This document shows, in pieces, positions 6,152 through 17,007 of a stretch of DNA of 54,689 bases. Both the position numbers and the translations under genes were made by a program. The notes below the pieces were generated by a model. That model saw only the letters and a program-made list of their open reading frames with translations, did not search any database and was not told the origin of the DNA. This DNA comes from Gammaproteobacteria bacterium (lineage in GTDB: Bacteria > Pseudomonadota > Gammaproteobacteria > Ga0077536), in assembly GCA_016191285.1 (NCBI GenBank), contig JACPPA010000042.1:1-54689 (forward strand), read 5' to 3'. Positions within the stretch are counted from its first letter, which is position 1. Each line of letters starts with the position of its first letter.

Positions 6152-7284
6152 TCGTGTCGGGAACCTTGTATCGCGGCCTCATCGAGCGTTATCGCGCGCG
6201 CCTGCCCATCGCCGCGGACACGCGAGTGATCAGCTTGTGCGAAGGCAATACGCCGCTCATCCCGCTCGAGAACCTCGCGCGTTCGGTGGGCCGCGGGCTC
6301 AGCCTTTACGCGAAATTCGAAGGCTTGAATCCCACCGGCTCGTTCAAGGATCGCGGGATGACGATGGCGGTGACTCAAGCTGCGAGTGAAGGGTCGCGTG
6401 CGATCATTTGTGCTTCCACCGGCAATACCTCGGCATCGGCCGCCGCCTATGCGGCGCGCGCGGGAATACGCTGTTTCGTCCTGATCCCCGAAGGCAAGAT
6501 TGCGCTCGGCAAATTAGCGCAGGCGACCATTCAAGGATCGGTGGTCATCCAGATCAAGGGTAACTTCGATGACGGCATGCGCATTGTCAAAGACATGGCG
6601 AGCGTGGCGCCGGTCGCGATCGTCAACTCCATTAATCCGTATCGTTTGCAGGGCCAGAAAACCGCGGCGTTTGAAATTGTCGATGCCTTAGGACGCGCGC
6701 CGGATTATCACTGCATACCCGTCGGCAACGCGGGCAATATCAGCGCGTATTGGACGGGCTTTAGCGAATACGCGGCAATTCAGCCGAAAACGGCTGCCTG
6801 TGGCTACTGCGTCGATACTTGCGCATTCCCATTCCCGGCGGTGATAGCGACACGCCCGGTCATGGTTGGTTATCAAGCGGCGGGTGCGGCGCCGTTCATT
6901 GCCGGTCATCCCGTGGCCGAACCGGAAACCGTGGCCACCGCGATTCGCATTGGCAATCCGCAATCGTGGGATCTGGCGTGGGCTGCGGTCCGCGAGTCGG
7001 GCGGGTGGTTCGATAGCCTTACCGACGACGAGATCCTGCATACGCAGCGCCGGTTGGCGGAAACCGAAGGCGTGTTCTGCGAGCCCGCGTCGGCGATTGC
7101 AGTCGCGGGTCTGTTGCGCGATATCGCGCGCGGCAGGATCGCCGATGGCAGCGTCATCACCTGTACTCTCACCGGCCACGGTCTGAAAGATCCGGACACG
7201 GCAATCAAACAAAGCCAAGGACCCATCTTGCAGGTCGCGGCCGAGAACGAGGCCGTGAAGCGCGCCATTCTCGATCACCTATAA
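6148..7284 (+). CDS. thrC: Threonine synthase
   Basis: A 378-residue PLP enzyme that converts O-phosphohomoserine to threonine. The PLP lysine is K67 in NPTGSFKDRGM. The CASTGNTSASAAAYAARAG phosphate-binding region and PVGNAGNISAYW follow in the expected order. It is the short form of the enzyme, as in many bacteria, without the N-terminal extension of the E. coli type. The ATGA overlap with hom and the short gap to the next gene suggest one transcription unit. Confidence 0.95.
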   Translation: MIVSGTLYRGLIERYRARLPIAADTRVISLCEGNTPLIPLENLARSVGRGLSLYAKFEGLNPTGSFKDRGMTMAVTQAASEGSRAIICASTGNTSASAAAYAARAGIRCFVLIPEGKIALGKLAQATIQGSVVIQIKGNFDDGMRIVKDMASVAPVAIVNSINPYRLQGQKTAAFEIVDALGRAPDYHCIPVGNAGNISAYWTGFSEYAAIQPKTAACGYCVDTCAFPFPAVIATRPVMVGYQAAGAAPFIAGHPVAEPETVATAIRIGNPQSWDLAWAAVRESGGWFDSLTDDEILHTQRRLAETEGVFCEPASAIAVAGLLRDIARGRIADGSVITCTLTGHGLKDPDTAIKQSQGPILQVAAENEAVKRAILDHL

Positions 7285-12762: not shown

Positions 12763-15159
12763 TCAATGCAAATGCCGTACGTTCAACGGGCGTGGTTTTT
12801 CGAGCAATAGGCCTTGCGCATAGTCCACACCCATGCCGCGTAGCATGTCGCGCGTCGCGAGATTCGGCACGCCGCCGGCAATGGTGCGCACCCGCAAGGA
12901 TTTGGCGACTCGGGCGATGCCCAGCACAATCTCGTAATCGACCGAGTTGTAGGCAATATTCCGCACGAATTCATCGTGGATAATTAAATAGTCGACCGCC
13001 GATCGTTTCAAAATCTGGTAGGAATACGCGCCGCGACCGAAATCACCCAGCGCAACCTTGCAACCGAGATCCTTCATCGTGGCGACAAAGAACGACACCC
13101 GTTCCCATGACGCTGAGGTTGGCGACTCTAGAATCTCAAAACACAGTATTGCGGGGACGATCGCGGCGTCATCGATTAGGCGTACCGTGTAATCAACAAA
13201 TTGCTCGTCGGCGACCGACTGCGCGGACACGCCAATGCCGACAACGTCCATGCCCGCGAGCTCGGCGTGTTCCGACTTTATCGCTTCGACCGCGGCTTTC
13301 ACCAACCACCGATCGATCTCCGGTAGGTGGGGGTGATGCCCGGTCGTAGCGGGCAGTTCGCGCGGCGCAAATAGCGCACTATTATCGGCGCGCGGTTGCA
13401 ATTTCACCTCGCAATAGCTTAGGGAGTCATCCTCGGTTCCGATTGGAATGAGGGTTTGAAAAAAAAGTTCGAAGTGTTCGTAGTGCAAAGCCGTGGAATT
13501 TTTAATGAGGCGCGGTCCAGGCTGAGTGGGCGCGAACGGCCGCGCTGCGTTAGCGCCGATAATCTCGAGTCGGTTGCCGCCGTTCCGCGCGGTACAAGCA
13601 CACACGCGCTCGGCGGCGCTTAAGACGTCGCCAATATTCGTGGGTGGTGGGACGAGGCTGGTGAGGCTTAGGCTGGCGTGAATCGAAAACTGCGTACCCT
13701 GCCAGAACAAGGACATTTCGGCGATGATCGCGCGGATCCCTTCCGCTATCACGCGTGCCTTTTCCATCGGGCAACTGACCAGCAGAATGCCGAAGGCGTT
13801 GCCATCAAGCCGCGCCAGAACATCCACGCCGCGAATGCGTTGACCGAGCGTGAGTGCTAAGGTTTGGAGGACGTAATCGCCGGCTGCCGCACCATGGTTA
13901 TCGTTGATGAACGTGAAATGGTCGATGCCGACGACACACAGGGCGTGTTGTTCGTCGGGTTTGACCCCAGGTTTCGTCAGCGCAGTCTTTATTTGAACTT
14001 CGAATTCGCTACGATTGATCAATCCCGTCAACGGATCATGGGTTGTTTCCCAGGCCAGCGTCCGCGCCGCGTTGCGGCGTTCGGCGGTGTCGCGAAGCAA
14101 AAAGACTGCACCCTCGCGCGATGCTGCACTGTGCAACGGCGTGACCACGTAGTCGACGCCAAGCCGTACGCCATCACGACGATGCAACGTGGCGTGGTCG
14201 CGTGGCGGGCTGTCGCATTTGAAGCATCGCTCAAGGGCAGCGGCGGCCACGGTTTGGCTGCCGGGAACCTGGAGTCTGAGGACGCTCGTGAAGGATTTCC
14301 CACGCGCGGTCGGCAACGGATAGCCCGTCATGTTCTCCGCCGCCGGGTTCAGATATTCGACCCGGCCTTCGCCGTCGACTCGGATGACGCCGTCGCTTAA
14401 GGCATCGAGCGTGGCGGTGGTGCGCGCCACATCGGCAAACGCGTGTTTCAAGGCGCCTACCTGCGAACGAATCCCATCCAAGAAACCGGTGCTGTCGATC
14501 GTTAGTGCGAGCCTGTTGGCTGCAAGCTGAACCTGGAGCGCATTGGTCTCGTCCACCACATTGGCGACGCCAGCGGTGAGGCGGCGTTGAAATTCTGCGC
14601 TCAACACGGCGATGACTGTCGCCACGGTTACCGCAGTCGCCGCCGCCAGCATGCCGTCTCGGCTATACAGCAAATAACCGACCGGCACGAGATAACTCGC
14701 GAGTAGGCCGGCATAGGCGGTGCCGCGCGCGGCGAATATCGGAAGTCCCGAGAGAACCACGGCGAAGGTCAGTCCATAAGCCGCATAAGCAACGGGGGCT
14801 GAGGTCATGCTCGTCGCTAGGTAAGCCGCCGCGGCCCAGGCCAGGCCGTAAATTCCCGCAAATCCGACCTCGAGCGCCGCGCGATCGAGCCACGATCCAC
14901 CCACGTGGGCGGCACGGGTCGTGTAGCCGTGGTAGGCGAGCGAATTCGCGCCCAAGAATACGGCCCAGGTGAAAATTCTCGGACCCTGACCGAGACCGGC
15001 GACGACGATGACAATTCCGAGCAGATTGATCAACAACCAATGGTTGGCGGCCGTGCGCCCGACCCAGGTCAGGTAATCACTCGCCGGTGGTGGGGTAGGC
15101 TGGGTGATCCTCGCGACCAACGGCAACTCAGCGGTAATTAGACGTGCTTCCTTCGTCAT
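12763..15159 (-). CDS. Membrane PAS-GGDEF-EAL protein with degenerate catalytic motifs
   Basis: A 798-residue signalling protein. Residues about 35-205 form roughly six membrane segments. A PAS domain follows (about 245-350, DGVIRVDGEGRVEYLNPAAE), then a GGDEF-like domain (about 370-535) and an EAL-like domain (about 565-795). The diguanylate cyclase signature is changed from RLGGDEF to RLDGNAF, so synthesis of c-di-GMP is unlikely. The allosteric I-site RxxD is kept (RGVD, exactly five residues before the signature). In the EAL domain, EAL reads EVK, the DDFG motif reads GDFG, and the late EGVE-like motif reads AGGV, so hydrolysis is unlikely too. It is probably a membrane c-di-GMP receptor or scaffold. 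It converges on lysS with a 13-base gap. Confidence 0.85.
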   Translation of the reverse strand: MTKEARLITAELPLVARITQPTPPPASDYLTWVGRTAANHWLLINLLGIVIVVAGLGQGPRIFTWAVFLGANSLAYHGYTTRAAHVGGSWLDRAALEVGFAGIYGLAWAAAAYLATSMTSAPVAYAAYGLTFAVVLSGLPIFAARGTAYAGLLASYLVPVGYLLYSRDGMLAAATAVTVATVIAVLSAEFQRRLTAGVANVVDETNALQVQLAANRLALTIDSTGFLDGIRSQVGALKHAFADVARTTATLDALSDGVIRVDGEGRVEYLNPAAENMTGYPLPTARGKSFTSVLRLQVPGSQTVAAAALERCFKCDSPPRDHATLHRRDGVRLGVDYVVTPLHSAASREGAVFLLRDTAERRNAARTLAWETTHDPLTGLINRSEFEVQIKTALTKPGVKPDEQHALCVVGIDHFTFINDNHGAAAGDYVLQTLALTLGQRIRGVDVLARLDGNAFGILLVSCPMEKARVIAEGIRAIIAEMSLFWQGTQFSIHASLSLTSLVPPPTNIGDVLSAAERVCACTARNGGNRLEIIGANAARPFAPTQPGPRLIKNSTALHYEHFELFFQTLIPIGTEDDSLSYCEVKLQPRADNSALFAPRELPATTGHHPHLPEIDRWLVKAAVEAIKSEHAELAGMDVVGIGVSAQSVADEQFVDYTVRLIDDAAIVPAILCFEILESPTSASWERVSFFVATMKDLGCKVALGDFGRGAYSYQILKRSAVDYLIIHDEFVRNIAYNSVDYEIVLGIARVAKSLRVRTIAGGVPNLATRDMLRGMGVDYAQGLLLEKPRPLNVRHLH

Positions 15160-15195
15160 GCGTTAGATCCCTCTCGGTTGAACTGCCGACCTTGT

Positions 15196-15365
15196 CCTAG
15201 CAGCCTGTCGGACTTAGGAGGAATCTGCTGCGGCGCTGGGACAGCGGTCCATATCCGCGCGCATTCTCGTTAAATAGTCCCCCTATTCGCCTCGAATGCG
15301 CGCGGATCTGTCCTCGCTCTCCCACTCGCCTCGCGACGATTCCCTAAGTCCGACAGGCTGCTAGG
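15196..15365. mobile_element. 160-bp palindromic MITE-like element with 23-bp inverted ends
   Basis: Bases 15196-15218 and 15343-15365 are perfect inverted repeats (23 bp, CAGCCTGTCGGACTTAGG plus the outer CCTAG). CTAG lies immediately outside both CAGCCTG ends (15197-15200 and 15361-15364) and could be a 4-bp target duplication. Inside are further palindromes: ATCCGCGCGCATTC and its complement near 15257 and 15294, around a small AATAG/CTATT core. There is no open reading frame. It looks like a non-autonomous transposable element or large cruciform. It lies just upstream of the GGDEF/EAL gene and could affect its promoter. Confidence 0.75.
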
Positions 15366-15428
15366 GCCTGAAGCCCGCTCGCGTGAACCGCGAATATTTC
15401 CATTTGACGTGAGGCTGGCGCGGCTAAG

Positions 15429-15498
15429 GAAAACAAAAATGACACTTTTTGTTTTCTTTACTCTGAAAAGCCCAGGAGGGACTTATTCAGAGGTTCCC
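15429..15498. mobile_element. Relic of the hairpin MITE found at 48418 and 48715
   Basis: This stretch matches the right half of the four-hairpin element described at 48418-48571. It has an A/T-rich hairpin (arms 15429-15439 and 15446-15456) followed by CTCTGAA, a short spacer, then GGACTTATTCAGAGGTTCCC, then TA. The left half is not recognisable. The hairpin arms differ from the later copies at two positions, and both strands of the stem changed together (G-C to A-T). The rest of 15366-15654, up to the end of argG, contains no gene I can support. Confidence 0.65.
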
Positions 15499-15654
15499 TA
15501 ATTCGCACCGCCCACGATAGAGATAGTAGTCGCAGCGTTCGGAAAACAAGCGACGCACGGTGTGACCGGCGTCACAGCGGTGACCGGCCAAACGCGATGC
15601 CGGTCACACTTTGGATCGGCGACTGTGAATTTGTGTTAGAACGATGGCCTGGGA

Positions 15655-16872
15655 TCAGGGCTCGCGGCGTGCGGCGACGCGCATCCGCAGGGCATTCAGC
15701 CGAATAAATCCGCCGGCATCCGCTTGGTTGTAGCTCCCGGCATCGTCTTCGAAGGTTGCGAGCTTGGTGCTGAACAGGCTATCGCGAGTGGATTTTCGGC
15801 CCACCACGGTCACGTTCCCTTTGTATAGCTTGAGCCGCACGCTGCCGTTCACGCGGGCTTGAGACTCATCGATCATCTTCTGCAGCATCAAGCGCTCCGG
15901 ACTCCACCAATAACCGTTGTAGATCAAGGCTGCATAGCGCGGCATCAGATCATCCTTGAGGTGCGCCACTTCGCGGTCGAGCGTGATCGATTCAATGGCA
16001 CGATGCGCTTTGAGCAGAATCGTGCCACCCGGCGTTTCATAACAACCGCGCGACTTCATGCCCACATAGCGATTTTCAACCAAGTCCAGCCGCCCAATGC
16101 CGTTGGCGCCGCCGATACGATTCAGATCGGCGAGTAAAGTCGCGGGGGACGCGCGATGACTGTCGATGGCGACCAGGTCGCCTTGCTCGAAGTCGAGATC
16201 GATCACGGTAACTTTATCTGGCGCCGTTTCCGGCGCGACGGACCAGCGCCACATCGAGTCTTCCGCTGGCGTCCATGGATCTTCCAACACGCCGCCCTCA
16301 TAGGAAATGTGCAGCAGATTGGCGTCCATCGAATAAGGCGATTTTTTACCGGCCTGGTATTCAATCGGGATCGCGTGCTTTTTTGCATACGCCAGCAAGG
16401 TTTCGCGCGAGGTCAGATCCCATTCACGCCAGGGTGCGATGACGCGGATATCCGGCTGCAGCGCATAGGCGCCCAGTTCGAATCGGACCTGGTCGTTGCC
16501 TTTGCCCGTCGCGCCATGCGAAATCGCGTCAGCGCCCGTGATACGCGCGATTTCAACCAAGCGTTTTGCGATCAACGGGCGCGCAATCGACGTGCCGAGC
16601 AAATATTCGCCTTCGTAAAGGGTGTTGGCGCGAAACATCGGGAACACAAACTCGCGCACGAATTCCTCACGCAGATCGTCAATGAAGATTTCGCGTACGC
16701 CGAGCAATTCGGCCTTGCGCCGGGCGGGCTCCAGTTCCTCGCCTTGGCCGATATCAGCGGTGAAGGTCACGATTTCGCAGGCGTAGGTCTCCTGCAGCCA
16801 CTTGAGGATCACCGAGGTATCGAGCCCACCGGAATACGCGAGCACTACTTTTTTAACGGATATTTTAGTCAT
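15655..16872 (-). CDS. argG: Argininosuccinate synthase
   Basis: A 405-residue ATP-dependent enzyme joining citrulline and aspartate to give argininosuccinate in arginine synthesis. The N-terminal PP-loop AYSGGLDTS is the ATP-pyrophosphatase motif. The conserved [13 protein letters not shown] and [15 protein letters not shown] segments follow. The start at 16870-16872 ([16 protein letters not shown]) puts the PP-loop where the family has it. Longer in-frame extensions upstream are not family-like. The C-terminal ARREP tail is slightly longer than usual. Confidence 0.96.
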
Positions 16873-17007
16873 GATTCGGTGTCGATCGAGAATTGCGAGG
16901 AGGGCGCATTGTGCCCGCGGGTAATCACGGCTGCAACGCCGCGTCGAGCGCGAGTCTAAAATTCGCGGGTGCTTCCGCCTGCGGCCAATGTCCAGCATTG
17001 GCGACCT

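Follow-up and report, generated by a model that had tools for sequence, protein, structure and literature searches.

The window, i.e., the whole stretch of 54,689 nt analysed here, contains, between a gene for a PAS-GGDEF-EAL signalling protein and the reading frame for argininosuccinate synthase (argG), a 160-bp element (15201-15360) that is set exactly between two CTAG tetranucleotides (Table 1). Its outer arms (15196-15218 and 15343-15365) are 23 nt each with 100% complementarity, each consisting of the 18-nt end CAGCCTGTCGGACTTAGG, CTAG and one matching flank base, and the arms of an inner palindrome (15250-15277 and 15283-15310) are 79% complementary. Folding of the element's interior far surpasses that of dinucleotide shuffles, with z = -8.6 for the minus strand and -5.8 for the plus strand. 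In these respects, and in the 36 bases between the left arm and the start of the signalling gene, the initial annotation of an element with perfect 23-bp inverted ends, CTAG borders and a palindromic interior was accurate. It had also been thought that the element might carry that gene's promoter, though a simple scan of 15100-15660 found no promoter, nor any terminator, and no reading frame of at least 100 aa lies inside the 160 bp. In a congener (G005) argG is followed by the related gene across a gap of 186 nt, compared with 495 nt in the window, and the bases shown for that interval hold no element.

Sixty bp to the right of the element is a second short repeat of ~79 bp (15426-15505), within which TAAGGAAAACAAAAA / TTTTTGTTTTCTTTA form an A/T-rich inverted repeat; among the matches listed in its own genome there are 38 to it, the best at 95-96%. 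Of the earlier view that the genome holds at least two short repeat families, one of them a 'hairpin MITE', the existence of at least one other family, that of the 15426-15505 repeat, stands, whether or not this repeat is that MITE.

Table 1. Coordinates of the element, its parts and the adjoining genes in the window (loop letters are those of the minus strand read as RNA)
Feature	Coordinates	Strand	Basis
PAS-GGDEF-EAL gene, ATG at 15159, 36 bases from the element's left arm	12763..15159	-	Open reading frame and Pfam
Left CTAG, presumed 4-nt target duplication	15197..15200	.	Borders in relatives; empty site of a relative
Left terminal inverted repeat, CAGCCTGTCGGACTTAGG	15201..15218	+	Perfect complementarity to right end
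124-nt structured interior, R1 (minus = RNA sense)	15219..15342	-	Covariation, strand asymmetry, R1 match of 134 bits
Internal loop 1, 3' side, GCAGCA (consensus GCAGUA)	15226..15231	-	Conserved columns
Internal loop 2, 3' side, AUGGACC	15246..15252	-	Conserved columns
Variable stem, 3' arm	15253..15266	-	Sequence varies, pairing kept
Internal loop 3, 3' side, AACGA	15267..15271	-	Conserved columns
Internal loop 3, 5' side, GAGGC	15289..15293	-	Conserved columns
Variable stem, 5' arm, 14 bp	15294..15307	-	Sequence varies, pairing kept (e.g., L020 against the window copy)
Internal loop 2, 5' side, GAGGACAG	15308..15315	-	Conserved columns
Internal loop 1, 5' side, GUCGCGA (consensus GUAGCGA)	15331..15337	-	Conserved columns, 151 sequences
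Right terminal inverted repeat (complement of CAGCCTGTCGGACTTAGG)	15343..15360	-	Perfect complementarity
Right CTAG, second copy of the presumed target duplication	15361..15364	.	Borders in relatives
argG reading frame, other side of the element	15655..16998	-	Pfam search on 15655-16869

Copies, relatives and the ends shared with IS1182

The element is mobile, multi-copy and dispersed. Far from being a single-copy sequence with no relative anywhere, it is present in its own genome in three full copies including the window's, the other two being 99% and 86% identical to it, together with half-elements and one short derivative, and it has relatives in other genomes. Two of the solo half-elements at home (C45:41595-41647 and C23:51108-51150) consist of one end and ~30 bp of interior. 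Relatives similar at the DNA level occur in 28 of 144 genomes sampled as relatives (E <= 0.001), and the exact 18-mer end is in at least 118 stretches of the GTDB collection, from beta- and gammaproteobacteria, Verrucomicrobia and others. With R1, a covariance model made from the element interior alone, the structure was found at E <= 0.001 in 87 of the 369 genomes taken from the class, representing 70 of its 272 sampled genera, and at E <= 1e-5 in 46 genomes of a phylum-level sample of 398; 38 of the 46 are outside the class, 36 of these in one family. As at most 8-9 candidates were scored per genome in these surveys, copy numbers per genome are lower bounds. The complete genome G390 has 100 matches to the model, and 20 of them are short forms with an interior of 52-60 nt. 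Both of the short forms that were read (L328:17114-17172 and L335:15768-15827) retain loop 1 but not the apex of the hairpin. Since such forms have spread in G390 without the apical loops, the apical half is dispensable for spread there, where the structure is not needed in full. Neither plasmid nor phage collections gave a match to the element (blastn, E <= 0.01), and IMG/VR gave no exact 22-mer of an element end and no confirmed relative of the transposase described next.

What moves an element that encodes no protein of its own? The initial annotation had proposed looking for an autonomous element with the same ends, and there is one in the same genome: a 1.56-kb insertion sequence (IS) on contig C51 has these ends, at two mismatches per 17-nt end, and the same CTAG borders. 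Its protein scores 334 bits against the NCBIfam model for IS1182-family transposases (cut-off 270), with Pfam domains DDE_Tnp_1_6 and DUF772. A further IS, on a Verrucomicrobiia contig (L125), likewise has the ends, the CTAG borders and an IS1182 transposase above the cut-off at 305 bits; the two transposases are 48% identical. Both ISs share with the element the terminal repeat and the CTAG border and differ from it in being ~1.6 kb with a transposase gene and in having no R1 match. It is thus the ends, not the interior, that tie the element to IS1182, and its interior is not a remnant of these two ISs. The element is a non-autonomous transposon (MITE), probably mobilised by IS1182, and the enzyme moving it in trans is most likely a transposase of that type, to judge from the shared ends and the one clean empty site dealt with below.

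In other genomes the partner is less apparent. Among 15 genomes surveyed, i.e., 14 chosen for several copies and the window's own, just four have an IS1182 match (E <= 1e-20), and in the window's own genome alone does a match exceed the cut-off of the family. At that threshold the transposase is absent from G390 and from G156, a complete genome with many near-identical copies. As a candidate autonomous partner in G156, one 1.1-kb span between inward-facing ends was examined and rejected, as it holds an ordinary gene. Nine spans of 700-3500 bp between inward ends were found in the collected loci, two with an IS1182 transposase and seven with other frames, these contents being judged by eye except in L018 and L125. 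For copy-bearing genomes without IS1182, the mobiliser may have been lost, may be elsewhere or may be a different one.

Ends and interior do not always travel together. In a test set of 53 sources, mostly Verrucomicrobia/Opitutaceae loci together with some contig ends of Proteobacteria, the window and the C51 IS, matches to R1 outside the window came from a Rhodoferax locus (one) and a single Proteobacteria isolate (four), and none of the loci recorded as Verrucomicrobia has the R1 interior, though the ends are common to both groups. Elements of 118-122 bp in Opitutaceae (among them L056, L058, L088, L143 and similar ones, of 118-120 nt) have the same terminal repeats and CTAG around an unrelated hairpin interior; some of the differences among them look compensatory, with seven distinct sequences being too few for the fold to be judged. 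Conversely, L287 and L288 (G110) and L290 and L295 (G391) have the R1 interior between terminal repeats that are far from the consensus and yet mutually inverted, for which reason the cargo seems to have changed ends there. Two observations concern individual sites. In G156, six of the eight copies read (L252, L254-L257 and L251) are preceded on the left by 18 bases that are identical or almost so, cttggtgcaatatccggg, and in a further copy, L253, a similar stretch is on the right side and inverted. In two congeners, L214 (G119) and L220 (G242) have the same flanks around elements in opposite orientation, so that either the element inverted where it was or a single CTAG received two insertions.

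Target tetranucleotide and stop codons

For the flanks, 159 distinct near-full elements were located through their interior, by means of a model or a profile restricted to it, from 213 profile matches, keeping those near full length with 60 nt of flank and dropping repeats of the same place. Both terminal repeats are present in 150 of the 159 when up to 5 mismatches are allowed in the ends, as they were for all flank counts. In relatives where the end in question was found, the left one is next to CTAG in 112 cases of 151 and the right one in 93 of 154. Whether it is a duplicated target is best seen where a site is empty. Of seven candidate empty sites fetched one is clean, the other six being not base-precise or having element remnants, and a search among loci already collected returned just two self-matches. 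The clean case, which belongs to a relative of the element and not to the window copy, has CCAG-element-CTAG in the filled locus (L199) and, within flanks ~95% identical, a single CTAA in the empty one (L315); this comparison, of the kind proposed in the initial annotation, sets one tetranucleotide against two. At another site, filled in G310, L318 (G203:C40) retains a few bases from the left end of the element, resembling a deletion remnant or an excision footprint.

CTAG contains TAG and is duplicated, and so insertion at a C-TAG stop keeps the stop codon. An open frame of at least 90 codons reaches 107 of 300 element sides, and in 78 of these 107, where one third would be expected, the tetranucleotide is in stop phase, TAG being the stop actually read in 71 of the 78. 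A stop-phase side is present in 68 of 150 elements and at 20 of 317 CTAGs outside elements, a comparison that involved simple reading-frame calls rather than annotation. On removal of both tetranucleotides most of the frames extend little, as at natural gene ends, and some by more than 100 codons. Of 150 gene 3' ends that face an element, 48 fall no more than 5 nt inside the boundary. The clean empty site and the bias in stop-codon phase support CTAG/YTAR being a 4-nt target duplication, as the initial annotation had thought possible. Part of the tetranucleotide pattern does not fit. Among the 27 of 150 elements with CTAG on neither side, direct matches number 3 (1.8 expected) and inverted ones 7 (2.0 expected), with one TTAA case counting in letters as both. 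This is the opposite of what target duplication predicts.

The interior and the strand on which it folds

MITEs are usually regarded as remnants of ISs with a passive interior. The main new point, going beyond the first reading of the element, is that here the interior is conserved and covarying, is unrelated to the two ISs with the same ends, evolves in an RNA-like manner and has a clear strand. In the sense of the window's minus strand the consensus forms an extended hairpin interrupted by three internal loops, GUAGCGA/GCAGUA, GAGGxCAG/AUGGACC and GAGGC/AACGA, and from its letters tandem G.A pairs are possible in the second. Across beta- and gammaproteobacteria the copies diverge in sequence despite a near-fixed length, 142 of the 150 measured being 161-163 nt long when taken from the G that precedes the repeat to the C that is its counterpart. 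Some loop bases are 95-100% identical in 151 sequences, and the stem between loops 2 and 3 undergoes wholesale change between copies with pairing retained.

The first alignment took only elements of 155-180 nt, with exact repeats excluded and with strand assigned from loop motifs rather than energy, and left out L118, L126 and L140, which have the same ends and another interior; alignment A1 is also without L149 (38 of 39 sequences). In the 38 sequences, 37 of 42 pairs of the structure, which was hand-drawn from the consensus of sequences that are related, have changed on both sides. All five measures of covariation exceed 500 of 500 shuffles, though shared ancestry can by itself outdo shuffles, the two measures based on numbers of pairs and of types being less prone to this. 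Not affected in the same way are a control in which the structure was slid along the alignment, with a covariation score of 0.563 for the structure in register and at most 0.150 for slid ones, and the test of strand that follows. This suggests that the interior evolves like a structured RNA of one conserved architecture with covarying stems.

How can a fold kept in a single strand be distinguished from one kept in duplex DNA? With pure DNA symmetry G.U should be as frequent as A.C, since each becomes the other on the opposite strand. Actually, G.U:A.C is 370:104 in the 117 sequences outside the training alignment and 482:140 in all 151. Choosing pairs on one strand introduces a bias, which was removed by the use of strand-neutral sets drawn without G.U from either strand. 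These give 126:16 and 126:15, and pairs drawn on the opposite strand, G.U being admitted, give 135:55. Within clusters of related copies, one-sided transitions to G.U compared with those to A.C are 66:21 in paired columns and 30:37 in unpaired ones (Fisher p = 1e-4), and with a stricter cluster cut 45:16 and 17:19 (p = 0.015). A mutational strand bias would hit paired and unpaired columns alike, and simple mutation bias is rejected as the unpaired ones lack the G.U excess. In orthologous copies, with their C-to-T drift, four of six paired-column changes gave G.U, which is too few to use alone. The terminal repeats have a weaker asymmetry (64:39) and the flanking tetranucleotides a reversed one (25:41, p = 0.06), as expected if both are read as DNA. 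The minus-type strand also folds better in 39 of 39 interiors of the first set. The initial annotation had envisaged a cruciform; with the signature of a maintained fold on one strand only, a single strand, RNA or ssDNA, is indicated rather than a symmetric DNA cruciform.

Could the arms have stayed complementary with no selection on the fold? Quasipalindrome correction is a known mutational process, and the element, a near-perfect palindrome overall, could be an ordinary palindromic MITE whose arms are kept matched by gene conversion or by repair templated within the strand. Correction of this kind takes no account of the strand and would remove loops of mismatched bases, yet the unpaired internal loops are conserved and G.U exceeds A.C several-fold, and we regard this explanation as very improbable.

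A single-stranded fold need not be RNA. It could be a hairpin of ssDNA formed during replication or transposition, in the manner of integron attC sites or the ends of IS200/IS605, and long palindromes do readily form hairpins in ssDNA. The better folding of the minus-type strand holds for DNA energy parameters as it does for RNA ones (39 of 39 in each case), and in G390 the full copies tend weakly to run against the replication fork, 51 of 80 doing so and 29 running with it (p = 0.018). However, that bias is gone once the 20 short forms are included (42 of 100 with the fork, 58 against; p = 0.13). DDE transposases, to which the IS1182 enzymes with the shared ends belong, generally act on double-stranded ends, and the G.U content of 482 of 6287 lettered cells, ~8%, suits RNA, G.T being less favourable in DNA. 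An attC site as such is rejected, for its boxes are RYYYAAC and GTTRRRY and 0 of 159 interiors have both. On this balance we consider an ssDNA hairpin unlikely, and RNA is the form of the folded molecule that we favour.

If it is RNA, for whom is it useful? One answer would be the adjoining genes, with the element as a cis-acting part of their mRNA, e.g., for protection of the 3' end, as an RNase site or as an attenuator. Effects on mRNA decay are reported for the RNAs of ERIC and Correia/NEMIS (PMC2229807, PMC10969869, in the parts consulted), and the clustering at gene 3' ends described above would be in keeping with this. However, the two orientations with respect to the abutting gene are about equally frequent, 43:35 (p = 0.43), yet one strand is selected, which would make about half of the insertions useless to the adjoining transcript, and the window copy is upstream of a gene and not at a 3' end. 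A host-useful cis element therefore appears to us quite unlikely.

Proposed explanation and known elements

The explanation that we favour, and consider probable, is a MITE mobilised in trans by an IS1182-type enzyme, whose interior is maintained as a fold of one strand, most likely as RNA. An IS1182-type transposase would move the element by way of the shared ends, and insertion at a C-TAG stop, on which about half of the relatives are placed, would leave that stop intact. The interior would act as RNA made by transcription reading through from neighbouring genes, which is proposed because no promoter was seen, and this RNA would fold into one long hairpin, its three purine-rich loops being recognised by some protein. 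As the element is placed almost at random in orientation to the abutting gene, selection probably favours a gain of the element itself, in mobility or in better-tolerated insertions, and not the regulation of particular host genes. For the RNA nature of the interior, its binding partner and its benefit, these are what we infer as most likely. More tentatively, and with doubt somewhat outweighing confidence, the element might represent a phylum-wide transposon family with a structured RNA as its only cargo, the MITE being a mobile RNA gene whose fold is conserved across at least two classes of Pseudomonadota, whose ends suffice to recruit a transposase and whose target, CTAG, allows it to settle on stop codons with the protein unchanged. 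Its RNA might then influence transposition or how well insertions are tolerated.

If confirmed, an RNA family absent from Rfam 15 would be spreading by transposition in 70 of the 272 sampled genera of the class, and would provide a testable case of a selfish element selected for RNA shape. Recreation of a TAG stop by the duplicated CTAG would likewise explain how an element of high copy number settles harmlessly at gene ends.

MITEs are a known kind of element, and for those below the comparison is with the portions of the cited sources that were consulted. MITEPsy1 of Pseudomonas syringae, 100 nt long and non-autonomous, resembles the R1 element as a small gammaproteobacterial element with a CTAG or YTAA target and a 4-nt duplication; it differs in its terminal repeat and in being related to ISPsy2 ('IS5?'), and the consulted part of its description has no conserved internal RNA structure (PMC3189936). 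ERIC (IRU, RU-1) is also a short intergenic palindrome with terminal inverted repeats, and its RNA is reported to act on transcripts in a manner for which orientation matters, but it is 127 bp, enterobacterial and has TA ends, whereas the R1 family is ~160 bp, CTAG-bordered and of other sequence (PMC2229807, PMC10969869). YPAL (RU-2) of Yersinia is similar in being ~168 bp, palindromic and mobile by empty-site comparison, and dissimilar in its internal inverted repeats and in target duplications of 3-26 bp (PMC2229807). NEMIS/Correia and BOX, RUP and SPRITE are MITE-like repeats with predicted RNA secondary structures (PMC2229807, PMC10969869, PMC3049150), though of other sequences and hosts, and in the consulted text of PMC3049150 there are 0 occurrences of covariation or compensatory change.

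No description of the R1 element was found in open-licence PMC articles, and no family reached its gathering score when window positions 14900-15700 were searched with Rfam 15, which gave two sub-threshold matches. By these two sources the R1 family, a MITE with a conserved RNA-like cargo, appears to be new. For six relative loci Rfam gave no match within the element and one outside it: in L053, positions 6901-6961 match Betaproteobacteria_toxic_sRNA (RF02278) at 51.1 bits (gathering score 50), ~0.6 kb from the element and with no overlap.
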